Shown here one piece after another: positions 1,736 to 63,979 of a stretch of DNA of 64,000 bases; the first letter of the stretch is position 1, and each line of letters starts with the position of its first letter. The position numbers and the translations under genes are program-made. The stretch spans positions 76,277 to 140,276 of the forward strand of contig CAJTCL010000008.1 of the NCBI GenBank assembly GCA_910575005.1. Direction: 5' to 3'. Under the pieces are notes generated by a model. That model saw only the letters and a list, made by a program, of their open reading frames with translations, made no database searches and was not told where the DNA came from. The DNA comes from Lachnospiraceae bacterium. GTDB taxonomy: Bacteria; Bacillota; Clostridia; Lachnospirales; Lachnospiraceae.

Positions 1736-2608
1736 TTATCTGCGATTATTATAAATATCAGTCAAATATACCTGCTTGGCCAGTGAGCCTTCCCGTAGGC
1801 TCTGATATGCCATCTGCGCCTGCGCCTCATCCTCAAACAAGCCAAAAACAGTAGGCCCGCTGCCACTCATCATAGCATTGACTGCACCATAATGAAGCAT
1901 TTCCTCTCGTATCTGAGCAATCACTGGATAATGGGGGATGGTCACACTCTCCAACACATTTCCCATATGAGAAGCCACTTTCTTTAAATCTCCCTCACGA
2001 AGTCCCTCCACCAAAAGATCAATCCTCGGATGCACGGTTGTCTTGTCCAATTTTAAATTCTCATAGACAAACTTTGTAGAGACACAGATCGGCGGCTTGG
2101 CCACTAATACTTTGCAATTTGGCATTGGCGCAAGCGGTGTTAGTTTCTCCCCAATTCCCTCTGCAAGCGCTGTCCCCCGCATCAAACAGTAAGGCACATC
2201 CGCCCCGATCTTAAGTCCTAATTCCATTAGCCGCTGTTGCGAAAGATTTAGCCGAAACATGCGATTCATGCCATAGAGAACTGCCGCCGCATCGGAGCTT
2301 CCCCCTGCCATACCTGCCGCAACTGGAATAAATTTTTGTAAATCAATATAGATACCCTGCTTTAGACCACATTCTTCCATTAAAATCTGTGCCGCCTGAT
2401 AGACTAGATTATTCTCGTTTTCAGGCACATAGAACAAATTTGTCTTGACTTGTATCTCTTGTTGTTCTAATTTCTTGATAATGATTCTATCATACAAACT
2501 CAAGGTCTGCATCACCATACAGACCTCATGATAACCATCTTCCCTCCGCTTTAACACATCCAGCCCAAGATTGATCTTGGCCAATGCCTTTAATCTCATT
2601 TCGTACAT
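1736..2608 (-). CDS. ispE: 4-diphosphocytidyl-2-C-methyl-D-erythritol kinase
   Basis: Cytoplasmic GHMP kinase of the MEP isoprenoid pathway; phosphorylates the 2-hydroxyl of CDP-methylerythritol. The order of motifs fits IspE: an N-terminal KINLGLDVLKRREDGYHEV segment, the ATP-binding PVAAGMAGGSSDAAA loop near residue 95, and the C-terminal MMSGSGPTVFGLF motif. About 290 residues, the usual length. The frame extends nine codons further upstream, but AGGAG lies 7-8 nt before the ATG at 2608, so that start is chosen. Likely the first gene of a two-gene unit with the GntR regulator. Confidence 0.95.
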   Translation of the reverse strand: MYEMRLKALAKINLGLDVLKRREDGYHEVCMVMQTLSLYDRIIIKKLEQQEIQVKTNLFYVPENENNLVYQAAQILMEECGLKQGIYIDLQKFIPVAAGMAGGSSDAAAVLYGMNRMFRLNLSQQRLMELGLKIGADVPYCLMRGTALAEGIGEKLTPLAPMPNCKVLVAKPPICVSTKFVYENLKLDKTTVHPRIDLLVEGLREGDLKKVASHMGNVLESVTIPHYPVIAQIREEMLHYGAVNAMMSGSGPTVFGLFEDEAQAQMAYQSLREGSLAKQVYLTDIYNNRR

Positions 2609-2685
2609 TGTATTTCTCCTGTATTTTGTATACATTCTATGATATTAGTTAAACATTTTTTACGGAAAATGTCAATCATCAGTGT

Positions 2686-2712
2686 TAATTATTTCCTTTT
2701 ACCTCCGATATA
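2686..2712 (+). promoter_or_regulatory. Sigma-28 (SigD/FliA)-like promoter
   Basis: TAAT, a 15-nt spacer, then CCGATATA. The SigD/FliA consensus is TAAA-N15-(G)CCGATAT/A. It lies about 70 bp upstream of the 2780 ATG, with no better sigma-A hexamers seen in the gap. One mismatch in the -35. A second such promoter lies at 34162-34188. Confidence 0.5.
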
Positions 2713-2779
2713 ACTTATAAGAACTATTAACTAATCAAACGGTTATGGATAACCAATTTTTGCCAAGGAGGGGCATAAT

Positions 2780-3379
2780 ATGAGCGTAAACAGTATTAAT
2801 ACAACCAATACAGCAGCTTATACCTCAACTATTCAGCAGAATACTTATAAGAATGAGGATACTAACACCAAGGCTGCTGAGAAAGAATCCTCAAAAAATA
2901 AAGGTGTCACATATGAGAAAGGCAGCGCTTCTACTTCTGCAAAAGGCATCTATGCTAAGGAAGATGTAGTTGCTCGTTTGAAAAAGGATGCAGAGGAAAG
3001 AACGAACCAGCTTAAGAGCCTGGTACAGCAGATGATGGGCAACCAGGGAACCAGAATCGGACAGGCAGATGATATGTGGAGATTCCTTGCAAAAGGTAAT
3101 TTCACTGTCAGCGCAGATGTTAAGGCTCAGGCTCAGAAGGATATTGCAGACGACGGCTACTGGGGTGTAAATCAGACCTCTGACCGTATTGTTGATTTTG
3201 CCAAAGCATTGGTAGGCGATGATCCAGAAAAGGCAGAGAAAATGCGTGCTGCTTTTGAAAAAGGCTTTAAGGCAGCTACCAAATCCTGGGGTTCCAAACT
3301 CCCAGATATTTCTCAGAGAACTTATGACGCGGTTATGGATAAATTCGATGAATGGGCTGGCGTGAAGACAGAAGCTTAA
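2780..3379 (+). CDS. Conserved 199-aa protein, possibly motility-associated
   Basis: I do not recognise a named family with confidence. The first ~75 residues are Ser/Thr/Lys/Asn-rich and low in hydrophobic residues, probably disordered. From about residue 76 there is a compact region: a helix (LKSLVQQMMGNQG), an FTVSADVKAQAQKDIADDGYW segment, and a C-terminal helical half ending FDEWAGVK. No signal peptide or membrane helix. ATG is preceded by AAGGAGG. The sigma-28-like promoter just upstream suggests it belongs to the late flagellar/chemotaxis regulon; that is inference. Monocistronic, with a terminator directly after. Confidence 0.75.
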   Translation: MSVNSINTTNTAAYTSTIQQNTYKNEDTNTKAAEKESSKNKGVTYEKGSASTSAKGIYAKEDVVARLKKDAEERTNQLKSLVQQMMGNQGTRIGQADDMWRFLAKGNFTVSADVKAQAQKDIADDGYWGVNQTSDRIVDFAKALVGDDPEKAEKMRAAFEKGFKAATKSWGSKLPDISQRTYDAVMDKFDEWAGVKTEA

Positions 3380-3407
3380 TCTGACATTTTATAAGAACAT
3401 AACAGGA

Positions 3408-3455
3408 CTTAAATCCCCATCTCCCTTATTATAAGGGAAATGGGGATTTTTTATC
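3408..3455 (+). terminator. Rho-independent terminator
   Basis: AAATCCCCAT...CTCCCTTAT pairs with ATAAGGGAAATGGGGATTT, followed by a T-run. It lies 30 bp after the 199-aa gene. Confidence 0.85.
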
Positions 3456-3659
3456 TTATCGGGTTAGGGTGTCAGAAGCACCGTTGACGCTACATTCAAA
3501 TCTTATATTACTCTTATAGAATTATACTGTAACAAAATTGATAATGGATATTTATCAGAAAGCTCTCCGCTGCTATTGCCCCCACGAAATCATTATGATA
3601 CAATAATATCCTACATAATAAATTCTAACGCTGACTTAAGTATGAAAGGAGACATTAAT

Positions 3660-4085
3660 ATGGCATGTTTTTTAGTACCTGCTGGAGAGGCAGTGGCAAC
3701 AACGATAATAACCAAACTTGTAAAATCTAAAGAAGAAAAAGAGAGGTCTGCCTCTGATAGCATCAATGTTGCAATTGATACACAGATAAAAATTCCTTTT
3801 TCCCATAAACTGAAATGGCTCAACAATATGCTTTGGGGAGGTTCTGCGCTTCTTGCTTTTGAGCATATTTGGCATGGTGAGGTTGTGCCGTGGTTTCCTT
3901 TTTTAACCGCAGCCGAAAATCCAATTGCCAGATCTGAAATGCTCCAAGAAATGTCGACGGTCGGTGTGGCAATGGCTCTATTGGTTTCTGCTGTTTGGGT
4001 GGGAATAACCACTGCCTCAAATGTAATTGAAAAGCGCCCCCAACAGGCAGTAAAGGTTAAGGCTCACAGAGGGAGGAATCAATGA
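3660..4085 (+). CDS. Small membrane protein, first gene of a two-gene operon
   Basis: About 141 residues starting MACFLVPAGEAVATTIITK. The frame is open upstream, but AAAGGAG lies 11 nt before the ATG at 3660. Two hydrophobic segments are visible: MLWGGSALLAFEHIWHG (about 58-75) and the longer MSTVGVAMALLVSAVWVGI (about 98-118). The C-terminus is basic and cytoplasmic-looking (KRPQQAVKVKAHRGRNQ). It overlaps the next gene by 4 bp, implying translational coupling. The HIWHGEVVPWFPFLTA segment looks family-specific, and I believe paired proteins like this occur in other Clostridia, but no function is known to me. Confidence 0.75.
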   Translation: MACFLVPAGEAVATTIITKLVKSKEEKERSASDSINVAIDTQIKIPFSHKLKWLNNMLWGGSALLAFEHIWHGEVVPWFPFLTAAENPIARSEMLQEMSTVGVAMALLVSAVWVGITTASNVIEKRPQQAVKVKAHRGRNQ

Positions 4086-4399
4086 CCTTACTGACGGCTG
4101 TCCTGGCGGCAATTATCACCACGATCATATGGTATCAAAAAGACAGTAGAAATGAGATGAAAACTGGAACACTCAGCTTAATATATTGGGGTGCTTCACT
4201 GATGTGGTTGACAGATGCTGTCTTTGCGTATATACAACTCCAAGCCGACTATTTTAATCCATCACCAGCAGATATGCTAAACGATTTATTTTTAGGGATT
4301 TCTGCAGTTGTATTTGGCTTACTTCTCTGGCTCATTCTTATGTTATTGAAAGATCCAAAAGGTATCATCAGACAGGCTCTTGAAAATATCCAAAACTAA
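4082..4399 (+). CDS. Small membrane protein, second gene of the operon
   Basis: A 105-residue integral membrane protein with three hydrophobic spans (LTAVLAAIITTIIWY at the N-terminus, LSLIYWGASLMWLTDAVFAY around 36-55, LFLGISAVVFGLLLWLILMLL around 72-92) and a short charged tail. Its ATG overlaps the stop of the preceding gene, so the two are surely translated together and may form a complex. No catalytic motif is seen. A terminator follows immediately. Confidence 0.75.
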   Translation: MTLLTAVLAAIITTIIWYQKDSRNEMKTGTLSLIYWGASLMWLTDAVFAYIQLQADYFNPSPADMLNDLFLGISAVVFGLLLWLILMLLKDPKGIIRQALENIQN

Positions 4400-4401
4400 A
4401 C

Positions 4402-4434
4402 GAAAAGGATGTAGCATTTGCTATATCCTTTTAT
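4402..4434 (+). terminator. Terminator of the two-gene membrane operon
   Basis: AAAAGGAT-TAGC and GCTA-ATCCTTTT arms around a short ATTT loop with T-rich 3' side, directly after the 105-aa gene. Confidence 0.7.
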
Positions 4435-4536
4435 CTATCAGATGTTAGGTGCATATATTTGTAGACGTTGCAAAAGTAATCCGCACCATCACAAAAATAC
4501 CTTCTATTTTTACTTATACAGAGAGGACGTAACGAT

Positions 4537-4826
4537 ATGGCAATTATACTTCTATTATGCTGTGCCGTCATCCTCTCCTGTATCATAGCAAATCGTTTTT
4601 CCAGTAAATTTGGAATGCCTGCACTTCTGTGCTTCATGGCACTTGGTATGATATTCGGCTCTGATGGACTCTTTAAAATATCCTTCAACAATTATATAAT
4701 AACCGAACAGCATTAAATCTTCCCAAAAACCTTTTGATCGCCCTCATTAAACGGGGAGATAAAAATATTATTCCCCAAGGCAGCACAATCATCCAGTCAG
4801 GTGATCGGGTAGTCATTTACAAATAA
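4537..4826 (+). pseudogene. Internally deleted K+/H+ (CPA-type) antiporter
   Basis: Only the two ends of a cation/proton antiporter remain. From ATG 4537 (after GAGAGGA) there are 59 codons encoding the first helix and the family-like SSKFGMPALLCFMALGMIFGSDG motif, then a stop at 4714-4716. In the +1-shifted frame from about 4713 to 4826 there is a 37-codon C-terminal piece (LPKNLLIALIKRG, IPQGSTIIQSGDRVVIYK) resembling the end of a TrkA-C/RCK_C domain. A full family member has roughly 480-550 residues, so about 1.2-1.4 kb has been lost near 4690-4713. Family call is by memory of the motifs. Confidence 0.7.
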
Positions 4827-4831
4827 ATTTT

Positions 4832-5596
4832 TTATGCCAGCAGCTTCCAGAAATATTGATTCAGACAATCCCATGTCTGGGAGCTGCCTGGCATTTGATC
4901 TGCCCATCCCTTTACCATAACCATAGAATCTTCCATATATTTATTTAACTTATCAATTCTTGGCACCAATCCCATTTCTGGCAATTTCTTTTTCATTTCA
5001 AGCAGCCGCTCTAATTCTGGTTTCAAACAATCTTCCAATTCTGCTTCTACTAGCTCTGAAAAAAGCATTGGCGGCGGACATTCTCTGTCTAAAATCCATT
5101 TTGCCGCCAATAATGGCCGCAGTACATAAAAATATTTCTTTGCTCTGACTTGATCTGTGTGTAGATAGGTACGATAATTTGATTCCGCCATATGCCAATA
5201 GTGATACAAACCTTTTTTCTTAGAAAAATACAGCGGCAGCAATTTTTTCAATTCCTCAAATTCTGGAGAAGTGCGATATACAACTGGAGAAGCACACCAT
5301 TCAAAAACTGTTGGATTTGATTTATAAAGCAATTGCAACGCTTTTTTGATATCCCATCCATTGATATCAAGAACTTCATCCAACTGCCACTCTATCACAT
5401 CTCTAATTTCATCCAGTCTCAGATAACTGTGCTTATCTCTGACATAGAGAAACCTCACATCATAATCGCTGTCAGGCGATGCAAATCCCCAGGAACGGCT
5501 GCCAGATTCTACCGCCGCAAGAATGCGGACATTTTCTTGCTGTTCCACTTCTTTTAATTTTTCTTCTATTGTTGTTTTTATCATTTCATCTGTCAT
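4832..5596 (-). CDS. RlaP/YcgL-type predicted nucleotidyltransferase
   Basis: A 254-residue protein of the DNA polymerase-beta nucleotidyltransferase fold. The signature is ESGSRSWGFASPDSDYDVRFLYVR (about 29-52), with the GS and DxD metal-binding residues present. A later RPLLAAKWILD segment is typical of the RlaP family (RNA-ligase partner / DUF-type nucleotidyltransferases). The substrate is unknown. ATG 5596 follows a weak Shine-Dalgarno. It lies convergent to the antiporter remnant, 5 bp from it, and seems monocistronic. Confidence 0.8.
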   Translation of the reverse strand: MTDEMIKTTIEEKLKEVEQQENVRILAAVESGSRSWGFASPDSDYDVRFLYVRDKHSYLRLDEIRDVIEWQLDEVLDINGWDIKKALQLLYKSNPTVFEWCASPVVYRTSPEFEELKKLLPLYFSKKKGLYHYWHMAESNYRTYLHTDQVRAKKYFYVLRPLLAAKWILDRECPPPMLFSELVEAELEDCLKPELERLLEMKKKLPEMGLVPRIDKLNKYMEDSMVMVKGWADQMPGSSQTWDCLNQYFWKLLA

Positions 5597-5736
5597 AAAA
5601 ATACCTGCTTTCTAAATGACATTCAAGAATGCCTCTGCGTTCTTAAATCATAGAGAAAAATCCCCAGAAACCAAACCACACTACATATGATTTTGCTTTC
5701 CAGGGATCCTATTACTCCGCCAAAACAATAATACCG

Positions 5737-7881
5737 TTATTTCTTAGCAAATTTTACTTTAAATACATACCACAGTGCTCCTGTAATACATACGGAGGAA
5801 TAACCACCGCAGATAATACCTGCCATCAATGGCAGTGCAAATTCCCGAATTGAACTGACACCGAGAATGAAGAGCACAAACACCATAATAAATGTAGTCA
5901 ATGAAGTATTGATACTTCTAGTCAAGGTCTGGGTGATACTTCTATTGGCAACTTCCTGCAAGTCCTCTGGGCTTTTCTTCTTAAGTCCTCCCATATTCTC
6001 ACGAATACGGTCAAAGATGACAATCGTGGCGTTGATGGAATAACCTACAATTGTCAGCATACATGCAATAAAAGTATTTCCCACGGATATCTTAACCACC
6101 GCATAGAATGCCAGCACCACCAAAACATCATGGAGCAAGGCAATTACTGCACTTCCCGCAAAGCGGATATCCTTAAAACGGAACCAGATATAGATCAACA
6201 TACAGATTGTTGCAATAATCACTGCCCAAACTGCATCGGAGCGCATCTCAGAGCTGATTGTTGAACTAATATTTTCAGCGGTAATTCCTTTTTCATCCAC
6301 GCCAAATTCATCAATCAACGCCTGATTCAAAGCTTCACGTTCTGATAATTCCAGAGAACGTGTCTTGATTACCACCTGATTACCACCCTCAATCTTCTGT
6401 GTCTGCACATTGGGGTCATTCGTTACTTTCTCTACCACAGGGACAATCTTCTGATCAATCTCTGCAATACTGTAATCCTCATTAAAAGTAACGGTAGTAG
6501 AAGTACCTCCCACAAAATCAAGACTGTAATTGAGGATATTGCCGTCCTTAGAGCCATTGATGCCCATTGCCACAAATCCAACTACAATCAGTACAATTGA
6601 GACTGCAAAACAAATCGCTTTCTTTCCTAAGAAATTGATGGTCTTGAGCTCCTTAGCTGCACCATAGAGTTTTGCATCCTGTACACCTAACGCATAGAAA
6701 CATCTCATCAACCACCGAGTCACTACCAATGCGGTAAACATGGACAATACAATACCAATTCCCAAAGTATAAGCAAAACCTTTGACAGAACCAGAACCGC
6801 GCATTCCCAAGACAATTGCTGCAATCAACGTTGTGATATTACCGTCGACAATCGCAGACAACGCTTTCTCATAACCAAGCTTGATTGCTGTGTTGACTGT
6901 CTTTCCAGCAGCAATCTCTTCCCGAATACGGGCAAAGATAATGACATTGGCATCCACCGCCATACCGATTGACAAGATAATACCTGCAATACCAGGCAAG
7001 GTAAGTGTAATATCAAAGATCCACAATGCAAATACGGTCAATGCAGAATATAAAATCAACGCCAAACTTGCTGTAAATCCTGGAACCAGATAAACAATCA
7101 TCATAAAGATCATAACCAGAATTAAACCAATGGCAGCAGCCTTCAAACTGGTGGAAATCGCTTCCTCACCAAGCTGTGCTCCTACTACCTTGGAATTTAA
7201 TTCTTCAAGCTCCAAGGACAAGGAACCGATACGGATTGTAGTTGCCAGATTGTTTGCCTCCTCAAAACTCTCCATACCGTCGATCTGCGCGCTTCCGCCG
7301 CTGATGGCAGATTTTACCTGCGGGCTGCTGATGATCTCACCGTCATAGACAATTGGCATACTCTTGCCGACATTGGCTGAGGTTGCCTCCTCAAACTTTA
7401 CTGCCCCTTCGTCGGTCAGGGTCAGCTCAACCACAAATTCTTTCTGCCCCATCTCACTGCTGGTTGTGGCTGCCTGCGCATTTTTAATATCTGTACCACT
7501 TAAAAGTGTCTCACCATCTTCATTCTGAAATTCCAATGAACCTGGTTTTCCTAGTTCTTCCAAAATTGTATTAGCATCGGAAACACCTGGAATCTCAATA
7601 TTGATTCGGTCATTACCCTCCTGATACACAGAGGCCTCTGTACTGTAGCCTTCCACACGCTTTTGCAGCTTGTAGACAGTATCTTTCATGTCTTCCTCGG
7701 ATGGATTATCCTCCACCGCTCTGTAGGTGATGCTGACACCGCCTGCAAGGTCAAGTCCCAGCTTAATGTTACGGTTCTCTCCTACACCAACCGTTGAGAT
7801 AATGGTTGCGGCATACCAGGACATTCCTGCCATAATTGCCAAAATCAAAACCAAAATCCCTAAAGCTTTGCCTTTTTTCAT
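5737..7881 (-). CDS. secDF: Protein translocase subunit SecDF (fused)
   Basis: SecD and SecF joined in one 714-residue polypeptide; the proton-driven accessory of the Sec translocon that helps pull proteins across the membrane. The SecD half has KLGLDLAGGVSITYR near residue 40, a large extracytoplasmic P1-like domain, then membrane spans including LSIGMAVDANVIIFARIREE. The SecF half starts with LDFVGGTSTTVTF and has VGYSINATIVIFDRIREN, so both conserved D(N/T)-I/V-IF-RIRE motifs are intact. ATG 7881 follows GGAGGAG. It is downstream of scfA and scfB in the same orientation, an arrangement recurrent in Clostridia. Confidence 0.95.
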   Translation of the reverse strand: MKKGKALGILVLILAIMAGMSWYAATIISTVGVGENRNIKLGLDLAGGVSITYRAVEDNPSEEDMKDTVYKLQKRVEGYSTEASVYQEGNDRINIEIPGVSDANTILEELGKPGSLEFQNEDGETLLSGTDIKNAQAATTSSEMGQKEFVVELTLTDEGAVKFEEATSANVGKSMPIVYDGEIISSPQVKSAISGGSAQIDGMESFEEANNLATTIRIGSLSLELEELNSKVVGAQLGEEAISTSLKAAAIGLILVMIFMMIVYLVPGFTASLALILYSALTVFALWIFDITLTLPGIAGIILSIGMAVDANVIIFARIREEIAAGKTVNTAIKLGYEKALSAIVDGNITTLIAAIVLGMRGSGSVKGFAYTLGIGIVLSMFTALVVTRWLMRCFYALGVQDAKLYGAAKELKTINFLGKKAICFAVSIVLIVVGFVAMGINGSKDGNILNYSLDFVGGTSTTVTFNEDYSIAEIDQKIVPVVEKVTNDPNVQTQKIEGGNQVVIKTRSLELSEREALNQALIDEFGVDEKGITAENISSTISSEMRSDAVWAVIIATICMLIYIWFRFKDIRFAGSAVIALLHDVLVVLAFYAVVKISVGNTFIACMLTIVGYSINATIVIFDRIRENMGGLKKKSPEDLQEVANRSITQTLTRSINTSLTTFIMVFVLFILGVSSIREFALPLMAGIICGGYSSVCITGALWYVFKVKFAKK

Positions 7882-8021
7882 GATCTCCTCCATTCTGTGC
7901 ATGTTTCAGCACAAAGAGATAGTTAGCGAAAGAGCTGATATGTCCTTCCGCTCTTTTATCCTCTCTTGTCTTTTATCTTATCGGGCAGCCTAAATGATAC
8001 CCGAAAGTTTCACAAATCCAC

Positions 8022-9380
8022 TCATTCTTCCTCTGCCAACGCTGCTTTGAGCATGATGGCACATTCAATTCTCTTTTTCTGTAACTCACAGCCAATATCA
8101 TAGACATCTGTAATACTGCCGTGGAAATGATAAGAATTTGCCGCACAGCCGCCGCTGCAGTAAAATCTTGCAAAACATTCGCGGCATTTTTCCTTCGCGT
8201 AAACATTACAGCGTTTAAACTGATTTTGCAGTTGTTTATTTTGGATCCCATCTGTGACATTTCCCATCAGAAATGATTCATCCCCGACAAACTGATGACA
8301 AGGGTAAAAATCCCCCCAGGGCGTCACCGCAAGGTACTCTGTACCAGAACCACATCCTGAGAGACGTTTTGCCACACATGGGCCGCCCTCCAGGTCAATC
8401 ATAAAATGAAAGAAATTAAAATCCTTACCTTCTCTGTGACGCTTGAGCATCTCTGCCGCCAGAGTATCATACTCTTCCAACAGTTTGGGAACATCCGCTT
8501 CCTGCAAAGCATAATCATCCTCTGGCTGCGCCACTACAGGCTCCACAGAGATCTGCCTAAAACCCAAATCTGCAAGATGCAGCACATCCTTAGAGAAATC
8601 CAGATTGTGATGGGTAAAGGTTCCTCTGACATAATATCTGTCCTGATTCCTGCTCTCTGCAAGCTTCTGAAATTTAGGCACAATCAACTCATAACTGCCA
8701 GCCCCTTTGCGGAACGGACGCATCTTGTCATGAATTTCTTTTCTGCCATCAATACTTAAGACTACATTTGCCATTTCCTGATTGGCAAATTCCATCACTT
8801 CATCATCCAAGAGCACCCCGTTAGTGGTAAGTGTAAAACGGAATTTTTTATCATGCAGCTTCTCCTGTTCCCTGCCATATGCCACCAATCTCTTTACCAC
8901 ATCAAAATTTAAAAGCGGCTCACCGCCAAAAAAATCTACTTCTAGATTACGGCGGCTGCCAGAGTTGGCAATCAGAAAATCCAAAGCTGCCTTCCCCACC
9001 TCAAAGGACATCAGCGCTCTTCTGCCGTGATACTCCCCTTCCTCTGCAAAACAATAACGACATGCCAAATTACAGTCATGGGCAATATGTAGACACAAAG
9101 CCTTAACCACCGTGGGCCTGTCCTGAAACTGCTCCATATAACCCTGATACTGATCTTTGGTAAACAGGCTGCCTTGCTCTGCAAGTTCCTTGACTTCCTC
9201 ATAACTCTCTGTAATCTCTGCCTGGGGGTATCTCTCCTTAAGGCTGTCAATGATTTCTTCTTTGGTGCTTGTCTCAAACAGGGGAATCACATCATAGGCA
9301 ACATCATCCACCACATGTACTGCCCCACTGTTTACATCCAAAACAATGTTATAGCCATTATTTTTATATTGGTGAACCAT
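8022..9380 (-). CDS. scfB: SCIFF peptide maturase, radical SAM with SPASM domain
   Basis: A 452-residue radical SAM enzyme that forms thioether crosslinks in the SCIFF precursor. An N-terminal PqqD-like peptide-binding region (about 1-90) precedes the Fe-S motif CNLACRYC (C103, C107, C110). The C-terminal half has the auxiliary-cluster cysteines of a SPASM/Twitch region (CVAKRLSGCGSG, FYPCHQF, CNVYAKEKCRECFARFYCSGGCA). The frame is open 31 codons further upstream, but GAGAGGGG before ATG 9380 and the family's usual N-terminus support this start. The substrate gene scfA lies 182 bp upstream and secDF 140 bp downstream, which suggests secretion of the product. Confidence 0.93.
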   Translation of the reverse strand: MVHQYKNNGYNIVLDVNSGAVHVVDDVAYDVIPLFETSTKEEIIDSLKERYPQAEITESYEEVKELAEQGSLFTKDQYQGYMEQFQDRPTVVKALCLHIAHDCNLACRYCFAEEGEYHGRRALMSFEVGKAALDFLIANSGSRRNLEVDFFGGEPLLNFDVVKRLVAYGREQEKLHDKKFRFTLTTNGVLLDDEVMEFANQEMANVVLSIDGRKEIHDKMRPFRKGAGSYELIVPKFQKLAESRNQDRYYVRGTFTHHNLDFSKDVLHLADLGFRQISVEPVVAQPEDDYALQEADVPKLLEEYDTLAAEMLKRHREGKDFNFFHFMIDLEGGPCVAKRLSGCGSGTEYLAVTPWGDFYPCHQFVGDESFLMGNVTDGIQNKQLQNQFKRCNVYAKEKCRECFARFYCSGGCAANSYHFHGSITDVYDIGCELQKKRIECAIMLKAALAEEE

Positions 9381-9480
9381 TGCAGGCCCCTCTCTTTCCA
9401 ATTTTGTTCTGACACAGACTGCGCCATCTGACATAACGCACAAATGACCGCTCGTCTGGGGCGAACGGTCCATGTATCAT

Positions 9481-9506
9481 TAAGGATGCCTCTGGCATCC
9501 TTATAT
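9481..9506 (-). other. Hairpin between scfA and scfB
   Basis: TAAGGATGCC pairs with GGCATCCTTA around a short loop (perfect arms). No T-run follows on the minus strand, so it is more likely an attenuating or RNA-stability hairpin that adjusts scfA:scfB ratio than a full terminator. Confidence 0.4.
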
Positions 9507-9562
9507 TGAGGCATACCTGCAATGCACGAAAGCCTCTATTTGATATTCTCATCTTACAATAA

Positions 9563-9703
9563 TTATTTGTTCTCACAGCTCTGATTTCCCACAGTGCAGC
9601 TTGTCTTGCATGCAGACTGGCAGGAAGTCTGGCATTCTCCACAGCCGCCCTTTTTCACTGTGTTCTGTAATTTCTTTGTATTTAATGTCTTTACATGTTT
9701 CAT
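9563..9703 (-). CDS. scfA: SCIFF ribosomal peptide precursor (six cysteines in ~45 residues)
   Basis: A 46-residue ORF reading MKHVKTLNTKKLQNTVKKGG, then cysteines at 21, 24, 28, 32, 36 and 43, ending CENK. This is the six-cysteines-in-forty-five pattern of the SCIFF ranthipeptide precursors, which are near-universal in Clostridia and are crosslinked by the neighbouring radical SAM maturase. AAAGGA lies 9-10 nt before ATG 9703, and a promoter sits just upstream. The physiological role is not established; quorum-related functions have been suggested in some clostridia. Confidence 0.93.
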   Translation of the reverse strand: MKHVKTLNTKKLQNTVKKGGCGECQTSCQSACKTSCTVGNQSCENK

Positions 9704-9743
9704 AATCGTACATCCTTTCTATATCTAATTAAATATCAGGCAT

Positions 9744-9771
9744 AGTATAACATATTTTTTTTCATATGCAA
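9744..9771 (-). promoter_or_regulatory. Sigma-A promoter of scfA
   Basis: On the minus strand: TTGCAT (9766-9771), 16-nt spacer, TATACT (9744-9749), about 40 bp before the scfA ATG. Confidence 0.55.
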
Positions 9772-9775
9772 AGTA

Positions 9776-11017
9776 TTATTTCAAAAATTCTACGGTTGCC
9801 TTGAACTGATCACAGTCAATATTTACCTCAAAACTGCCCCCCAGAGCAGCCGTATAAGTATTAACAATCGCCAATCCCAATCCATTGCCCTCCGTGGTTC
9901 TGGATTCATCTCCCCGCACAAAACGCTCCACAACTTGCTCTTTGGTAAATTCCATGCGATAACCTGCTGTATTAGTAATCTCAAAACGAACCTTTTTCGC
10001 ATCCTCTTCCCCTGCAATGACAGACGTTTTTAGAAAGATTCTGGTATACTCCTGGGAATATTTTAACGCATTTTCTAAAAGATTCTGGCAAATTCGGTAC
10101 ATATAACTACTGTCCGCAATAAAACTAGTATCTTCCTTTGTCAGCGATACCACTAACTCCCTGCCGCTTTTCTGAATGCGATCCTCCATATCTGCATATA
10201 CCTGTTCAATCAGACGATTCATCTCCATAGGTTCCATCTTCAGCTCCACATTGCCGCTGCTGGTCTTTGCCAGATCAAAAAGGCTGTCAATCATTTCCTT
10301 TAATTTCTGTGCTTTTCGAAAAATCACTTCCACATAGTCCTCAAGTACATCACTGAGTTCTTCCTTCTTCATCAGCTCTAGGTAGCCAACCATTGAGGTC
10401 AGAGGTGTTTTCAGATCATGGGACACATTGGAGATCAAATCCACTTTCATCTGCTCGCTGCGCAGTGCTGCTTCCAGATTTTGTTGGTTGATCTGTTCCA
10501 TTGCCGCCATATATTCCTCAAGCTTTCGTTTCATATATGATAATAAAATTATTTCACCCACAATCCATTGAAGAATTACCGTTCCCACAAAGGTATAGCC
10601 CATACTGTAATTTTCATACTTCCAAGGATGTGTATAAATATAATGAAAATTTTTTATCGCTGCTCCTAACAATATCAAAAACAGCAATCCCCAAAAAATC
10701 TGCTGCTTTTTCAATTTTTCTTTCCATTCCTGATAGAATTCTCCGTGGCTAGGTTTCCACCGCCGATTACGGTAACGAACCAGAAATCCCAAAAGCCCCC
10801 ACAGCCCAACTCCAAGACTGAGATTTAGAAAAAATCCTCCCGTCAATGTCTCCTCTGTAACAAAAAATCTGCCATGAAGTAGATCTGAAAAGATTAATGA
10901 TGCCAGAACTGCACATATCCCCCCTGGCAGCAACCGAAATTCATCCCGCTTCATCCCCTGCAAAATTAAGCTCCAAATATCCTTGTTTAATTCAGTATCT
11001 TTCCATTTTGTAGCCAA
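9776..11017 (-). CDS. Sensor histidine kinase (VanS-like architecture)
   Basis: Inner-membrane kinase of about 413 residues. Four hydrophobic segments (about 30-50, 62-82, 107-122, 140-162) are joined by short loops, so there is no large extracellular sensor. HisKA follows with SNVSHDLKTPLTS (phosphoacceptor His about 200), then HATPase_c with CQNLLENALKYSQ and EGNGLGLAIVNTY. The longest frame uses TTG at 11017 and overlaps the response regulator by 26 bp. A better-placed site is GGAG 7 nt before a TTG at 10963, so the exact N-terminus is uncertain. It partners the upstream regulator; the signal is unknown. Confidence 0.85.
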   Translation of the reverse strand: MATKWKDTELNKDIWSLILQGMKRDEFRLLPGGICAVLASLIFSDLLHGRFFVTEETLTGGFFLNLSLGVGLWGLLGFLVRYRNRRWKPSHGEFYQEWKEKLKKQQIFWGLLFLILLGAAIKNFHYIYTHPWKYENYSMGYTFVGTVILQWIVGEIILLSYMKRKLEEYMAAMEQINQQNLEAALRSEQMKVDLISNVSHDLKTPLTSMVGYLELMKKEELSDVLEDYVEVIFRKAQKLKEMIDSLFDLAKTSSGNVELKMEPMEMNRLIEQVYADMEDRIQKSGRELVVSLTKEDTSFIADSSYMYRICQNLLENALKYSQEYTRIFLKTSVIAGEEDAKKVRFEITNTAGYRMEFTKEQVVERFVRGDESRTTEGNGLGLAIVNTYTAALGGSFEVNIDCDQFKATVEFLK

Positions 11018-56520: not shown

Positions 56521-57417
56521 TTATTCGTAAAAATAATTGAAACCGCAAAATTTCTGAGCGATTGGATCATAGAAAATCCCTATGGTAGTCTGCCCTTGCA
56601 TTAAGAGCAATATTCGATCTTTTAATTCCACCACTTGGTAGGTATAACTTGGTGTTTCATCTATCTCTCCCTCACTGATTAGCTTATCTCCCCACGTTGT
56701 CTCTTCCCAATTCATCCGCCATTCTTTGATGTTCTCTGCTAATTCCTCAGCTTCTACTCTTTGTTGTATCATAGTATCCAGCCAGTAGAACCCCTGAATA
56801 TATAGATTTTGATAAACTTCATAGGCATCATTTTCAATGGCATATGTTGACACTGGCACAAAGAACAAATCGTCATTTTCAATGGCATATGTTGACACTG
56901 GCACAAAGAACAAATCTTCCATATAAGCAACATACTCTGCCAGAGGCTGTTCACACTGCTCCAAAACAGATATCATTTTCTCTTTCCCTGTTTTCCACAT
57001 TTCCTGTTCTCTATGGTCAGTCGAATCATATGCAATACAACTAAAACTCATCAGCGTCATATCACCACATGCAATCTGCACTTGATAGTTTCTGTCTCCT
57101 AATTCCAGAATTTCTTGATAAAAGTAGATATCTCCTGTGGAAGCTTCTCTGGCCACTGACATATTATAAAAGATATGCTTGTCATTCTTCTCAAACCATT
57201 CCATCACATCTGCAATGTCAACCCCTGTCTGATAACTGATTAACTGACCAAAATACCTATCTACTGCAATCACTCTGTCCTCCTCTGTCGCATGATCCAC
57301 CATCCCATACTGCGCCAAGATAATTCCTTCCACCAAAAGTTCTGGTATGCCCTTCTCTAAATTTTGTCTAGCCTTCGCATAATAATTCCAGGGAAAAATT
57401 TCTACATCATGAATGAA
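56521..57417 (-). pseudogene. Unknown gene, 5' end lost to the mobile element
   Basis: The frame continues in-frame upstream of the longest called start (GTG 57336, no ribosome site) to about 57417, where a 12-bp direct repeat and foreign sequence begin. The remaining ~299 codons include GFIHDVEIFPWNYYAKARQ, several acidic/aromatic segments and YQVVELKDRILLLMQGQTTIG; I recognise no family. A 45-bp tandem duplication repeats DLFFVPVSTYAIEND exactly. Probably interrupted by the integrative element to the right. Confidence 0.6.
56828..56917. repeat. 45-bp tandem duplication
   Basis: Two adjacent units (56828-56872, 56873-56917), identical over about 44 of 45 nt, encoding 15 residues twice in frame. 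Confidence 0.9.
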
Positions 57418-57503: not shown

Positions 57504-57878
57504 ATGGCAAATATATTATTTGAGAAACTGGGCGGCAAATATGAGCGGCAAGGAGATTACTTAATACCATGCTTGACTGTACTCGCCGAAGAAGAACAGC
57601 CGATAGGCACATGGGGACAGCGGCATCTGGACTATCTGAAGCAGTATCGCAAGGTTACATACACCAATCTTCTCACAAACGGCAAGCTGAATACATACCT
57701 TGCCGACATCGATAGGCAGGCACAGGAACGCTTTGAAAGGCTCATAGAGGGCATGAAACAAGCGCAGGGCATAACGGAACGCCTAAAGGAAGAAAATGCC
57801 TTAGAATGGGTACAACACTTAAATAACATAAGGGCATGTGCGAGACAGATTGTGAACGAGGAAATTGTTTTTGCATAA
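57504..57878 (+). CDS. tnpV: TnpV-like transposon protein
   Basis: A 124-residue basic/acidic helical protein matching TnpV of Tn4451/Tn4453-type integrative elements (LGGKYERQGDYLIPCL, WGQRHLDYLKQYRKVTY, TNLLTNGKLNTYLADIDRQA). Function is unknown but it is a reliable marker of such elements. ATG 57504 follows GGAGAAAATAG. A GC-rich hairpin terminator follows. Confidence 0.85.
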   Translation: MANILFEKLGGKYERQGDYLIPCLTVLAEEEQPIGTWGQRHLDYLKQYRKVTYTNLLTNGKLNTYLADIDRQAQERFERLIEGMKQAQGITERLKEENALEWVQHLNNIRACARQIVNEEIVFA

Positions 57879-58096: not shown

Positions 58097-58696
58097 TTAG
58101 GCGGTTTGACGTTTGGTACGTTTTCCGTATTCACGTTCTATTTCCCGCATTTCTTCATCCGTTGGAATATCAACAATCCCGACATAGGAATAGTAGATGT
58201 CAATATCCTGTGTCCGTTTCCCGTCTTTTTTCTCGCATTCATGGACTACGATTTTATCCACAAAGGTATTTAAGATTTCGGGCGTTAGCTCGTCAATACG
58301 AGTATATTTTTTGGTGACGGCAATTAGCTTGGAAACATTGGTTGCTTCTGTGTCGGCTTCGCTGACTTCGGATTTCAAGGTTTCGATTTTGTGTTTTAGC
58401 TGTTCCTGCTCAGCTTCATAACCATCTGACAGCTTGTAAAAGCGTTCGTCATTCAGCTTTCCGTTGACATTATCTTCATAGATTTTGCGGAACAGGCGGT
58501 CAAGTTCTTCCATGCGCTTTTCGTCTTTTTCAATCTGTTTCTGCTTTGCGTATAACTCGTATCGGCGTTCCGCAAGGGTAGTGTCAATCTGCTGTCGGAT
58601 AAATACCCTTTCAAACTGCTGTAAATAGGACAGGAAATGCTGAAGCTGTTTTAATACCAACTGGTATAGGACATCTTCTCTGACTGCTTCGCATCG
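58097..58696 (-). pseudogene. 3' fragment of a large serine recombinase (TnpX-like)
   Basis: About 200 codons from the C-terminal region: CEAVREDVLYQLVLKQLQ, a coiled coil (about 58200-58560), then LTPEILNTFVDKIVVHE and TQDIDIYYSYVGIVDIP of the DUF4368 type. The catalytic resolvase domain and zinc ribbon are missing; similarity stops at 58696, where the CHAP fragment begins in the opposite direction. Non-functional remnant. Confidence 0.75.
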
Positions 58697-59002
58697 TGGT
58701 GTGCCGATCAGTGCGGCTATCTGGAAAGCGGCATCATACCGAAATTCTCCCTCTGCTCAGACGGCGTGAACTGGTTTAAGGGCAAAGGGCAATGGCAAGG
58801 CAAGAACTATGAGCCGCAGGCAGGCGACCTCATTTTCTTTGATTGGGGGAGTGACGGCTCAATCGACCATGTGGGAATCGTGGAAAAATGCGAGAATGGG
58901 ACGGTCTACACCGTGGAGGGCAACTCTGGCGATGCCTGCAAACAGCAGAGCTATCCAGTCGGGAGCGGCTCAATATACGGCTACGGAGTGCCAAACTATT
59001 AG
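58697..59002 (+). pseudogene. 3' fragment of an ICE cell-wall hydrolase (CHAP/NlpC-type domain)
   Basis: The open frame begins abruptly at WCADQCGYLESG and continues through GVNWFKGKGQW, AGDLIFFDWGSDGSIDHVGIVEK and YTVEGNSGDACKQQSYP. This matches the end of the Tn916 Orf14-like secreted peptidoglycan hydrolases of conjugative elements; the His of the catalytic pair is in IDHVG, the Cys part of WCADQ. No start or signal peptide remains. Confidence 0.75.
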
Positions 59003-59156: not shown

Positions 59157-59223
59157 ACTATTTGAATAGTTGACACCACATGACTATTGTGATAGTATGT
59201 TCAAAAAGAACTATTGCAATAGT
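59157..59223 (+). promoter_or_regulatory. blaI-type promoter with three operator dyads
   Basis: ACTATTTGAATAGT (59157-59170), ACTATTGTGATAGT (59183-59196), ACTATTGCAATAGT (59210-59223): three 14-bp palindromes with centres 26-27 bp apart. TTGACA (59170-59175), 17 nt and TAGTAT (59193-59198) lie within them, so repressor binding would cover the promoter. Confidence 0.8.
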
Positions 59224-59241
59224 CATTTTGGGAGGTGCGGA

Positions 59242-59601
59242 ATGAGGATGAAGTTATTTGATTCAGAATTAAAAGTGATGGAAGTATTATGGAAAGAGGG
59301 AAACATTACAGCAGGACAGATTTCAAAAATACTGAAAGAGGAAATTGGCTGGAATAGGAATACAACTTACACGGTGATAAAAAAATGTATAGAGAAAGGC
59401 GCAATCGAAAGAATTGAACCTAAATTTATCTGCAAGGCAATGATTTCCAAAGAAGACGTACAGGCATATGAAACAGCGGAATTGATTGAAAGGATATTTG
59501 ACGGTTCTAAGAAAGAATTTTTTGCCGCTTTGTTGTCTGAAAAAACATTGACACATGATGAACTGCAGCAATTAAAGAATTTGATAAACCAGATGAAATG
59601 A
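59242..59601 (+). CDS. BlaI/MecI-family repressor
   Basis: A 119-residue winged-helix repressor: MRMKLFDSELKVMEVLWKEG, ITAGQISKILKEEIGWNRNTTYTVIKKCIEKGAIER, then a dimerisation tail in which BlaI proteins are cleaved. GGGAGG precedes ATG 59242. It should bind the three dyads upstream and be released by the protease encoded next. Stop is 10 bp before the protease ATG. Confidence 0.92.
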   Translation: MRMKLFDSELKVMEVLWKEGNITAGQISKILKEEIGWNRNTTYTVIKKCIEKGAIERIEPKFICKAMISKEDVQAYETAELIERIFDGSKKEFFAALLSEKTLTHDELQQLKNLINQMK

Positions 59602-59611
59602 GGTGAAAAGT

Positions 59612-61219
59612 ATGTTGCTTAAAATAAGCATCTCAAGCAGTATATTGATTATCTTGATTGTTACTTTGCGCTTTGTTGCTTTAAACAGGCTGCCGAAAAA
59701 ATTTTTTGTGCTGTTGTGGAATATTGCAATACTAAGATTGCTGATACCCTTTGACTTACCGATACATTATGGACTTGCTTCACCTATAACAAAATTAGCA
59801 GATAGTGGCATCAGTCACTATAATACTGCCAACAGTCCGCTTATAACAGAAACATTAAAAGAACCAATTACTGATACAACAGTAGCATTATCTTTAAACA
59901 ACGTCGCATGGATGACGATTGTTTGGGCAGCAGGTATGGCAGTCATGCTTGTGATTTTCGGGGTATTATATTGGAGAGAATATCAAAAAATACGGACAGC
60001 ATTACCTATTTCAAAAGAAAGCGATGATTATTTCAGGTCAGTGACAACGATTCCTAAACGTGTAAAGTTATTGGTATCGGACAGAATCTCAACACCTTTA
60101 ACGTATGGCGTTTTGTCACCTAAAATTATATTCCCGAAAATTTTTAAACTTTCGGACAACACGAAAATAAAATATGTCCTTACGCATGAAATGATACATA
60201 TAAAACGGTTGGATAATCTTTGGAAAATAATTATCCTTATAGTGGTGAGCATACACTGGTTCAATCCTTTCGTTTGGATAATGTATCGGCTTCTCAACCG
60301 TGATATTGAATTATCATGTGATGAAAAAGTGGTTGCTCTTTTGGGAGAAACAGCAAAAAAGGAATATGTTACGACGCTTGTAGATTTGGCGGAAAAGCAG
60401 TATCATTGGTCGTTTATCTCAAATGGATTTGGAAAGAACGCCATACAAGAAAGGATTGTGGCAATCATGACGTTTAAAAAAGCAACTTGTTTAAGCATAG
60501 GCTGCACAGTGGTTTTATTAGCAGGCGCGATTACAGTATTTGCACAAAATGATTTTAAAGTGGCAGGTACTGATGCTGGTACAATGTCTAAAGCCCACAT
60601 TACGGAAGACAAAAAAAATTATTTGGAAAAAACTGAAATCGAAGATGGTGAGTATTTACATCATGGAATTACAGTTATCAATGGAGCTTATTATTACCAA
60701 GGCGTGCGCATCCGCATATTCATGGATTTAAGGGAAAACAAATCTTTTGAAACTTTCAGTTTTGATAAGGAAGGAACCGTTGATATACGGTTAATACGGT
60801 CAAAAAATAATTCTATTAAAAAAATTGAGTATCTCACAAAAGAAGAAGCAGATGAAATCCTTAGTGATTTTGAAGATAGCGAGTTGGATGGGCAGACGGA
60901 AGAACAGCATACGGGTGTGATAACCAGATTAGCAAAAGAAGAACTTCCGAATAAGGTTATAGATGCCATAAATTCTTGTGATGATGAAAAATGGTATGTG
61001 ATTAATGACAAGGAATATCAATATGTTTATTTTAATGGTTTGACTGCCAATTATGCTTTCCAACCAGAGATTTATGCTGACAGCCATAGCGGGACTTTAC
61101 AAATATATGATATGGGTACTTCAACTGAAAATTATGTATTGCTTGAAATTGAACGGAATATTTCACTGAAAATTTTATACAACCATTCGCAAGTTGCATA
61201 TACAGAAATAGCTTTATGA
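59612..61219 (+). CDS. BlaR1/MecR1-like M56 membrane metalloprotease with unusual sensor domain
   Basis: A 535-residue sensor-protease. Residues about 1-320 are the M56 module: membrane helices, zinc motif THEMIHIKR (HExxH at 192-196) and ELSCDEKVV. Membrane span about 293-311. The extracytoplasmic domain (about 350-535) is not the penicillin-binding domain of BlaR1; it carries GITVINGAYYYQGVRIRIF, GTVDIRLIRSK, then KWYVINDKEYQYVYFNG. The same domain makes up the next gene. ATG 59612 after GAGGTG is preferred to GTG 59603. Confidence 0.88.
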   Translation: MLLKISISSSILIILIVTLRFVALNRLPKKFFVLLWNIAILRLLIPFDLPIHYGLASPITKLADSGISHYNTANSPLITETLKEPITDTTVALSLNNVAWMTIVWAAGMAVMLVIFGVLYWREYQKIRTALPISKESDDYFRSVTTIPKRVKLLVSDRISTPLTYGVLSPKIIFPKIFKLSDNTKIKYVLTHEMIHIKRLDNLWKIIILIVVSIHWFNPFVWIMYRLLNRDIELSCDEKVVALLGETAKKEYVTTLVDLAEKQYHWSFISNGFGKNAIQERIVAIMTFKKATCLSIGCTVVLLAGAITVFAQNDFKVAGTDAGTMSKAHITEDKKNYLEKTEIEDGEYLHHGITVINGAYYYQGVRIRIFMDLRENKSFETFSFDKEGTVDIRLIRSKNNSIKKIEYLTKEEADEILSDFEDSELDGQTEEQHTGVITRLAKEELPNKVIDAINSCDDEKWYVINDKEYQYVYFNGLTANYAFQPEIYADSHSGTLQIYDMGTSTENYVLLEIERNISLKILYNHSQVAYTEIAL

Positions 61220-61279
61220 TGGAAGCATGGTATTGAAACTGGTATGCCATAAAGAGCGGATAAAGGAGGATAATTTCAA

Positions 61280-61969
61280 ATGAAAAGAAAAACAATTTTT
61301 TCAATAGTTACAATATTTATTTTTATATTCATGGTTTCTATGCCAATAGCTGCATCTGCAAAGGGTACGCCATCTAGTAAGCATGTTTCTGAATATGCCC
61401 AATTAGGTATTATAAAGAAAGATGATGCGTTCTTTTATAAAAATAAGCGTATCCGTATTTTTTTTGATGAAAGGGCTGACCGTTCTTTTGAATACAGCTT
61501 CGTGGATATTGATGGCACAATTGATATACGTCTGTTGAGAAATAAAGCTGGAAATATTAGCAGGCTGATACGGATACCAAAAAAGAAAGCGAATAAAATA
61601 TTGAAAGATATGCTTGGTTTTGTTCCAAAACATCCCACTGAGAATACGAAACCTCACAAGAAAAAAGAGTATACTGACATTGAGCGTTGCCAGTTTAAAG
61701 ATGTCCCTGTCGGAATTAAGAAAGTTATTAAAAAAAGATGCACTAAGAATAAATGGTACATTATCAAATCTTCAAATAGAGATTATGTATATTTTAAAAA
61801 AGTGCCAAAAGACTTTGCATTCCAAATTATCGGCAAAAATTTAGATATACATGATATAGGGAAAAAGAAAAAAAATGGTTCTGTACTGCTCTCTATCGGC
61901 AGGAATTTTAATTTTACTCTCACTTATAATTCCAAGCCAGTAAAAACCATTATTATAAAAGCTAAATAG
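61280..61969 (+). CDS. Secreted protein homologous to the sensor ectodomain
   Basis: A 229-residue protein with a signal peptide (MKRKTIFSIVTIFIFIFMVS...ASA). Residues about 43-229 align with 350-535 of the preceding protease: FFYKNKRIRIFFDERADRSFE, GTIDIRLLRNKAGNISRLIRI, KANKIL, KNKWYIIKSSNRDYVYFKK, NLDIHDIG and ISIGRNFNFTLTYNSK have direct counterparts. Very basic (many KKK runs). AAAGGAGG precedes ATG; 60 bp after the protease, no separate promoter seen. Probable soluble ligand, decoy or effector of the system. Confidence 0.8.
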   Translation: MKRKTIFSIVTIFIFIFMVSMPIAASAKGTPSSKHVSEYAQLGIIKKDDAFFYKNKRIRIFFDERADRSFEYSFVDIDGTIDIRLLRNKAGNISRLIRIPKKKANKILKDMLGFVPKHPTENTKPHKKKEYTDIERCQFKDVPVGIKKVIKKRCTKNKWYIIKSSNRDYVYFKKVPKDFAFQIIGKNLDIHDIGKKKKNGSVLLSIGRNFNFTLTYNSKPVKTIIIKAK

Positions 61970-62445: not shown

Positions 62446-62561
62446 CTTTTGTCGTTTTTTATCGGAATGTGCCGAAGGGCTGTTTCCGCTGTTGGCTGCC
62501 GTTCGCCGCCTATCCAATCTGGATTATTACATTTCAAAAATTCAGATTGGAGGAAAAAAGA

Positions 62562-62987
62562 ATGGCATACAACAACGGACGGGAGAACAGGAAATGGCTT
62601 ATCTGGAAAGAAACCGAGGAAAAAATATTGAGGGAACACGGAGTTGATGAAACCACCATTGAACAAATCCGCACAGACGACAGGGCAGACTTCAATTCCA
62701 ACAGGCGGTTTTACCATTGGACAAGCGACTTCGGTGAATACCTTGAGGGGATGGCAGACAGGGAACAGAATACCGAGCTAAAGACGGTTGCTGATTTACT
62801 GGACGAGATTGAGGACGAAACTCTGTATCGGGCATTGCTTACGGTGGACAGGCGTACCCTGCAAATCATCCTGCTGAAAATGCAGGGCTATTCCACAAAG
62901 GAAATCGCCCCGCTTGTGGGATTGACAACGGGTGCTATCTATGCAAGGCTAGACCATCTGCGGAAAAAGCTGCGGAAGATTTTATAA
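62562..62987 (+). CDS. Sigma-70 region 4-like protein of the mobile element
   Basis: A 141-residue protein. The C-terminal half reads LYRALLTVDRRTLQIILLKMQGYSTKEIAPLVGLTTGAIYARLDHLRKKL, a sigma-70 region 4 helix-turn-helix; the N-terminal half (RFYHWTSDFGEYLEGMADRE) is typical of small sigma-like factors in Tn916-type and related elements. GGAGG lies before ATG 62562. Probably controls element genes. Confidence 0.8.
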   Translation: MAYNNGRENRKWLIWKETEEKILREHGVDETTIEQIRTDDRADFNSNRRFYHWTSDFGEYLEGMADREQNTELKTVADLLDEIEDETLYRALLTVDRRTLQIILLKMQGYSTKEIAPLVGLTTGAIYARLDHLRKKLRKIL

Positions 62988-63510: not shown

Positions 63511-63578
63511 GGATTGTGTCAGCCACAATCCCGCCCACACAAAACAAGTGGGCGTAACTTACTCAGGGGACATCCCCT
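63511..63578. other. Candidate origin of transfer (oriT)
   Basis: GGATTGTG-TCAGC-CACAATCC (63511-63531), then CGCCCAC (63532-63538) inverted as GTGGGCG (63548-63554), immediately followed by TAACTTACTC, then CAGGGGA-CA-TCCCCTG (63563-63578). An inverted repeat abutting a short conserved core just upstream of mobC and the relaxase is typical oriT layout; the complementary strand TAAGTTACGCCC loosely resembles TAAGTGCGCCC nic sites of MobQ/P plasmids. Confidence 0.5.
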
Positions 63579-63622
63579 GTTTACCCCGAAGAAAGAAAAA
63601 TAAGACTGGAGGATTGAGGAAA

Positions 63623-63979
63623 ATGAGCAGAGAAAAATCAGAAAAGGTTGTGCGGAGTGTCCCGATTACTGTCCGATTGAACGAGGAAGAACATGAAAAA
63701 TTAAAGCAGTGCGCCGCCGCTTGCGGTCTGTCCACCGCCGAATTTATGCGCCAGTTATGCAAGGGAAACGCCCCTCAGCCACAGCCTAAAACCGAGTTTT
63801 GGGAACTGCTAAACAAGCTCTATGAGGTGCATGACGCTTTCAAAAAGTGTGTTCCCTACTATCTAACCGCCGCCGAAATCTGTAAGGAGATTGAGGATTT
63901 TATCTTAGAACTGCAACAGAAAATAACTCTCCCACTACGATTTAATGTAGAAGAACTGATGGAACAGGGGGCGGTCTGA
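63623..63979 (+). CDS. mobC: Mobilisation relaxosome protein MobC
   Basis: A 118-residue accessory DNA-binding protein. VRSVPITVRLNEEEHEKLKQCAAACGLSTAEFMRQLCKG is the ribbon-helix-helix part of MobC/MbeC-type proteins; the C-terminal helix (LLNKLYEVHDAFKKCVPYYL) likely contacts the relaxase. GAGG lies just before ATG 63623. The relaxase starts 1 bp after the stop. Confidence 0.85.
   Translation: MSREKSEKVVRSVPITVRLNEEEHEKLKQCAAACGLSTAEFMRQLCKGNAPQPQPKTEFWELLNKLYEVHDAFKKCVPYYLTAAEICKEIEDFILELQQKITLPLRFNVEELMEQGAV

Follow-up and report, generated by a model that had tools for sequence, protein, structure and literature searches.

A 64,000-nucleotide stretch from a Lachnospiraceae bacterium (GenBank assembly GCA_910575005.1, contig CAJTCL010000008.1, positions 76,277 to 140,276 of the forward strand; here called the window) carries genes for a BlaI-type repressor, for an M56 membrane protease with an extracytoplasmic tail, and for an exported protein that is homologous to this tail. 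The system is real and coherent, and it forms the chief cargo of a Tn4451-like integrative mobilisable element. The tail consists of two parts, and part 1, which reaches no curated family, recurs in M56 proteases and in free proteins of other genomes, which suggests that it is an undescribed, exchangeable envelope-sensing module. Our favoured, if tentative, reading is that the free paralogue in the window is the induced output of the sensor and probably binds the same signal, thus giving protection as well as feedback. The operon has the following features (window coordinates).

59157..59170 (no strand): BlaI-type operator 1, ACTATTTGAATAGT, dyad match
59183..59196 (no strand): BlaI-type operator 2, ACTATTGTGATAGT, dyad match with one mismatch
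59210..59223 (no strand): BlaI-type operator 3, ACTATTGCAATAGT, dyad match
59170..59198 (+): promoter-like site TTGACA-17-TAGTAT, a consensus match only, overlapped by operators 1 and 2
59242..59601 (+): BlaI-type repressor, 119 aa (Pfam Penicillinase_R, 1.2e-23)
59612..61219 (+): M56 membrane protease, 535 aa with a 220-aa extracytoplasmic tail (Pfam Peptidase_M56, HEMIH)
60653..60886 (+): ectodomain part 1, about 75 aa, by sequence comparison
60890..61216 (+): ectodomain part 2, about 105 aa, rare, by sequence comparison
61280..61969 (+): exported protein, 229 aa, with both ectodomain parts and a putative signal peptide to about AASA (by eye)

This layout and its coordinates agree with a sequence-only reading of the same DNA, which had described a BlaI gene, three dyads, an M56 protease with an intact HExxH motif and a third gene with a predicted signal peptide. 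The M56 protein matches PF05569 in Pfam at 7.9e-47 over residues 2-285, its HExxH motif is HEMIH at residue 192, and the exported protein has a hydropathy stretch at residue 3 that is consistent with the signal peptide judged by eye. The three genes form an apparent operon behind the dyads. Since no terminator-like site is listed in the 60 bp between the M56 gene and the exported-protein gene, the latter is probably cotranscribed with the former.

The earlier reading had also held that the sensor ectodomain is duplicated as a secreted protein, and the homology stands: BLASTP aligns the two with 30% identity over 220 aa (E 2e-28), and the alignment scores 96.3 bits as against a maximum of 21.6 bits in shuffles (n = 100). 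Judged by sequence comparison the two are homologous, and it is in this sense only that they can be said to share a fold. The ectodomain is longer than the ~185 residues first proposed, at about 220 aa, and two of the matched blocks differ in the M56 copy, which has DMG for DIG and YNH for YNS. Between part 1 and part 2, no internal homology was seen in sequence comparison. In the proteins scanned, neither part scored above a curated threshold of Pfam or NCBIfam, and the ectodomain profile had no credible PDB match. Weak part-1 matches below cut-off, to Glyco_hydro_16 (2.9e-4, in L112; L numbers are our labels for loci), DUF3305 (0.0024, L125), LrpA1 (7.5e-4) and phrog_9170 (7.6e-4, L111), were set aside.

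BlaI/M56 pairs are known above all for switching in response to beta-lactams, and BlaI dyads in general overlie the operon promoter. The window system shares with BlaR1-BlaI and MecR1-MecI an M56 protease with HExxH and an extracytoplasmic C-terminal domain, an adjoining BlaI-family repressor and promoter dyads. Unlike these systems, it has no recognisable penicillin-binding domain, and neither a beta-lactamase nor a penicillin-binding protein (PBP) is encoded in the operon, as the sequence-only reading had said. No penicillin-binding domain was found in the tail by Pfam (over cut-off, M56 only), in the PDB (the BlaR1 match is to residues 5-286, by sequence), by the ectodomain profile or as a KTG box; S..K and H[ST]G do occur. 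Against NCBIfam blaR1_generic the M56 protein scores 119.9 bits over residues 7-336 and does not reach the cut-off of 400. In PMC7593790, the BlaR1 sensor domain is described as resembling a class D beta-lactamase, and ligand-bound BlaR1 as activating its protease and inactivating BlaI; the relatedness of the sensor domain to a soluble exported protein is thus a further likeness. Unlike with BlaR1, the window operon itself encodes the exported paralogue, which is not a recognised enzyme.

The three operators follow the dyad ACTATT-NN-AATAGT at spacings of 26 and 27 bp. With up to two mismatches, this dyad has 10 matches in the window versus 4.18 expected, a number that none of 100 shuffles reached, while promoter-like sites overall are not enriched (17 found, 13.3 in shuffles). 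The exact operator is confined to this operon promoter in the source genome. Operator-like sites lie upstream of 9 of 17 BlaI genes that are at least 47% identical to the window BlaI (8 of 16 if the window is left out), compared with 1 of 25 other BlaI genes, and clusters of at least two relaxed sites stand at or before BlaI starts in 9 of 12 chosen genomes. At L204, three sites precede another BlaI-M56 pair, one without part 1.

Of 397 genomes drawn from the family, 41 have part 1 at E 1e-3, and of 398 drawn from the phylum 6 have it at E 1e-5, the source genome being included each time. Part 2 is convincing in three of the 397: the window, L143, where it is fused to M56, and L110, where it is free. 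The free protein of L110 contains both parts, has a net charge of +14 and is encoded next to an M56-BlaI pair in which no part 1 is seen in the M56 protein; it is the nearest free homologue of the exported protein (48% identical). Other candidate part-2 relatives at E 9e-5 to 1e-3 (six of nine genomes) were rejected, five frames being other proteins, among them some that we take to be epimerase-like and aminotransferase-like, and L171 having no part-2 frame. Weak order-level matches in three genomes were likewise dropped (a regulator-like frame in L061, no frame in L062 and L063).

Gene contexts were compared at all loci of the family search and a few from relatives, together 63 loci with 64 part-1 frames; L129 and L163, having no part-1 frame, stand outside the 64. 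Forty-three frames are fused to M56 and 21 stand alone. BlaI lies within 400 bp of 39 of the 43 fused genes, or of 40 by eye when L042, whose BlaI overlaps M56, is counted, and a histidine kinase lies within this distance of none of them. By comparison, 12 of the 21 stand-alone genes come after a response regulator-histidine kinase pair, at a distance of 18-147 bp from the kinase gene (Fisher p 9e-8, which is too optimistic because the loci are related to each other). These kinase-linked Lachnospiraceae loci (L111, L113, L114, L116, L119-L125, L128) encode exported part-1 proteins, and no family name over the Pfam or NCBIfam cut-off was found among those scanned. A loose lipobox pattern is present in 10 of the 21 stand-alone frames, and 13 have two part-1 copies. 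The nine without a kinase are the window gene and L110, both beside a BlaI-M56 pair; L112; L117; the remnants L115 and L164; L118 and L126, with no regulator seen nearby; and L158, at a contig end. In L117 a free 137-aa copy (6642-7055), spanning the last membrane segment and part 1 of M56, is near-identical to the tail of the M56 protein encoded 1.2 kb away (8259-10403) and is a recent partial duplication. A same-strand frame follows within 200 bp of the fused M56 gene in 12 of 43 cases.

A hint that a free copy may be under BlaI control comes from L112. At 2546-10409, BlaI and an M56 protein that contains part 1 are followed by PqqD, a radical SAM/SPASM protein, a Cys-rich frame of 47 aa, two ABC transporters and a lipoprotein; a relaxase gene lies nearby, and the whole looks like an element. 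The lipoprotein is a free protein with two part-1 copies, encoded 5.6 kb beyond the M56 gene. We scanned all 14.5 kb of the locus with an operator matrix built solely from the BlaI promoters of other loci. The best site lies before the lipoprotein gene (21.4 bits at 9615), followed by two sites before BlaI (19.3 and 18.9 bits) and then by a drop to 8.9 bits; in the 250 bp upstream of the lipoprotein gene, 0 of 2000 shuffles reached 21.4 bits. Because the best BlaI-operator match of the locus precedes it, the free copy of L112 looks like a regulated output. The 47-aa frame resembles the precursor of a ribosomally synthesised and post-translationally modified peptide (RiPP), and the BlaI-M56 pair stands directly ahead of a RiPP-like cluster. 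The sequence-only reading had held that the signal is probably something other than a beta-lactam and had given a wall-active peptide as an example, and the position of this related pair is the one circumstantial support that this example received.

Comparison of the sensors points to an exchange of the tail. In the 15 M56 fusions that are paired with a BlaI of 47% or more identity to the window BlaI, the protease body scores 124-228 bits against the window's (26-42% identity), and part 1 scores 22-42 bits, with no match in two of them. In 23 fusions with other BlaI proteins the body scores 80-114 bits, and part 1 scores 44-81 bits in 20 of the 23 (the last part-1 copy of each protein was used throughout). 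Since the two sets of scores diverge, the window tail seems to derive from the lineage with other BlaI proteins and the rest of the protein from that of the window BlaI. The window sensor therefore looks chimeric, and its tail looks like an exchangeable input. In a quick, poorly resolved part-1 tree (81 columns, no bootstrap, copies of less than 58 residues dropped), the window tail, L016, L143, the free window protein and L110 form one set (SH-aLRT 98), in which the free window protein and L110 group together (SH-aLRT 92). Charge was measured on 50 of the 64 part-1 frames, and 44 are acidic, including 16 of the 19 free frames measured; L016, L143, L110 and the free window protein are among the basic ones, which makes the acidic window tail the odd one in its own branch.

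That the operon is cargo of a mobile element, as the sequence-only reading had proposed, was borne out. The element comprises 10,079 bp (57409-67487), its right end lying beyond the window on the same contig (C8), and is present at 12 insertion sites including the window, with flanks that are all different and ends that are identical. The full element is 99.2-100% identical in 10 other named genomes, and a shortened variant in G028 (L049) has 4.86 kb at the left and 0.78 kb at the right in common with it. Its hosts are labelled Lachnospiraceae, Eubacteriaceae, Clostridia, Petralouisia muris and, in one case, Erysipelotrichales bacterium; MGBC names we take to denote a mouse-gut catalogue. The exported protein occurs at 97-100% identity in 7 of 145 relatives, the source genome included. 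Because the operon is the main cargo at 12 insertion sites and all three of its genes remain intact in each of the 11 other copies, it can be expected to function by itself. Besides the genes listed below, the element encodes a relaxase, a large serine recombinase (Resolvase + Recombinase + zinc ribbon) and a candidate TnpW-like protein (21.1 bits, under the curated cut-off of 25). It resembles Tn4451/Tn4453 elements in its large serine recombinase, relaxase, TnpV, candidate TnpW-like gene and many insertion sites, and differs from them in that its main cargo is a signalling operon and not a chloramphenicol acetyltransferase; low insertion specificity and catP cargo are given for that family in PMC5704250.

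57409..64000 (+): Tn4451-like integrative mobilisable element, the part inside the window; same ends at 12 insertion sites
57504..57878 (+): TnpV-like gene (Pfam TnpV, PF14198, 1.2e-44)
58097..58660 (-): C-terminal part of a serine recombinase (DUF4368), a partial copy about 88% identical, inverted, to the right-end recombinase
58766..59002 (+): CHAP-domain frame, 78 aa, probably a truncated remnant (Pfam CHAP 8.1e-13, profile positions 29-81)
62469..62987 (+): sigma-factor-like gene (Sigma70_r4_2, 25.0 bits, cut-off 25.7)
63548..63979 (+): NikA-like mobilisation gene (PF21983, 5.5e-12)

Another genome of the genus contains fragments 73-83% identical to parts of the element (L043:5178-6255), probably a decayed relative. 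A short tandem duplication (protein stretch LFFVPVSTYAIEND twice, window 56769-56954) lies inside the minus-strand frame 56521-57336 that adjoins the element.

As we picture the system, BlaI would repress the operon at the three dyads over the promoter. The ectodomain would bind an extracellular ligand, for which a wall-active peptide or a wall intermediate is the likeliest candidate, upon which the M56 domain would be switched on and BlaI inactivated, presumably by proteolysis. The operon and with it the free paralogue would then be made, and the paralogue may bind the same ligand, or the target of that ligand, outside the cell, such that the cell would be protected and the sensor, through sequestration, silenced. 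This sensor-output logic would mirror that of BlaR1, the sensor domain of which resembles a resistance enzyme, the class D beta-lactamase (PMC7593790). The sequence-only reading had offered a ligand presenter, a decoy and a resistance effector as roles for the soluble copy; the L112 operator and how little else the element carries as cargo speak for an induced output, and they leave the choice between effector and feedback decoy undecided.

Several observations weigh against an induced output that binds the ligand of the sensor. Few of the 43 M56 fusions have a free copy nearby, and since most are without one, signalling can in general do without a free copy; with this, and with 12 of the 21 free genes behind kinases, the idea that the domain always comes as M56 fusion plus secreted copy had to be given up. 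The mature exported protein (net charge +29, pI 10.1) and the sensor tail (-18) are oppositely charged, which is odd for one common ligand. Among the 20 stand-alone genes whose upstream DNA was scanned (L158, with too little of it, was left out), L112 alone has a strong operator of its own: the other 19, L110 included, have no site above 6.8 bits, and the operator of the window gene sits in its operon. The longer dyad AGACTAT-N5-TAGTCT, which finds the same three places in L112 (6 matches listed over the two strands where 0.47 are expected, a number that none of 200 shuffles gave), was picked after these sites had been seen, and the 14-mer of the window with two mismatches is not enriched in this locus (5 matches, 1.83 expected, 12 of 200 shuffles). 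Furthermore, relaxed operator matches do not exceed the reversed control in 11 of the 12 chosen genomes (fewer in 10, equal in G428, more in G608), nor are they in excess in the source genome, and thus only the clustering and position of such sites carry weight. A genome-wide BlaI regulon was accordingly rejected, the relaxed sites being no commoner than the reversed pattern. Ten of 18 isolated relaxed sites, the one at the L112 lipoprotein excluded, were inspected; nine lie within predicted frames, and the remaining one, in L211, is intergenic, before an unrelated gene.

The closest rival is that the free protein is a dedicated signalling partner, which would dock on the tail or hand over the ligand, its induction giving feedback. 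We regard this as a distinct possibility. Accessory lipoproteins of two-component systems are a recognised kind, and a position behind the kinase is common for accessory sensor proteins; the free part-1 proteins resemble them both in this position, directly behind a response regulator-kinase pair, and in their putative lipoboxes, but the window protein is partnered by an M56 protease instead of a kinase. That the transposon's tail and free protein are oppositely charged speaks for this reading, but as a general rule the contrast was rejected, both being acidic in L112. A transposon whose main cargo did nothing but regulate itself would also give its host little, and after the 43 fused M56 genes no conserved target gene or common family was seen by eye.

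The charge of the exported protein, together with that of L110, the other free two-part protein, would also fit a cationic wall-binding shield that sits on anionic wall polymers and blocks cationic peptides, its likeness to the sensor tail reflecting descent alone. We think this unlikely, and because nearly all of the free frames measured are acidic, it could hold at most for the basic branch. Very improbable, finally, is a duplication without a function of its own. The near-identical copy in L117 and the remnants L115 and L164 illustrate that such duplications may arise, but the identity between tail and free copy is no more than about 36% in the transposon, a 48%-identical free homologue stands beside another BlaI-M56 pair (L110), and each of the 11 other element copies has kept the free gene intact. 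Distinct codon changes among these copies number 10 nonsynonymous to 7 synonymous in this gene (neutral expectation 3.7:1), 16:17 in the M56 gene (3.5:1) and 2:2 in BlaI; all three lie under the neutral expectation, though the numbers are small.

The transposon may also affect the regulation of its host. In the source genome, six BlaI genes exceed the family cut-off, one of which (L215:1486-1845, C17) is 58% identical to the window BlaI, with no M56 gene beside it in the 3.3 kb inspected, and an M56 gene elsewhere (L017:2436-4001, C16) is preceded by two BlaI-type operators and has no adjoining BlaI. As a prediction only, the transposon BlaI might act at these two loci. In PADLOC, which covers anti-phage defence, neither the M56 protein nor the exported protein had a match; plasmid and phage collections gave none, and no match in viral contigs was confirmed. 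The part-1 module was not found in the titles or abstract openings of the literature searched, which is no proof of its absence from print.

In the present BlaI/M56 pair the input domain is a different one, a module without a name, which is exported as a protein of its own as well. With the profile of this module, A3, 'BlaR1-like' proteins that have some other tail than a penicillin-binding domain can be annotated by sequence. Its spread to histidine kinase loci is the most interesting part. A wider view, which we put forward as speculative and somewhat doubtful in its entirety, is that an undescribed extracytoplasmic module serves as the common input of two unrelated kinds of membrane signalling system in Lachnospiraceae, M56/BlaI and histidine kinases, and has repeatedly been freed as an exported protein, and that the transposon pair is a matched sensor and effector, a self-contained and transferable immunity cassette against a gut peptide or another wall-active agent, with the tail as receptor and the free tail as induced antidote. 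If the free copy is indeed an effector, the element would be a mobile immunity cassette that travels among gut bacteria labelled to different families and to one other order.

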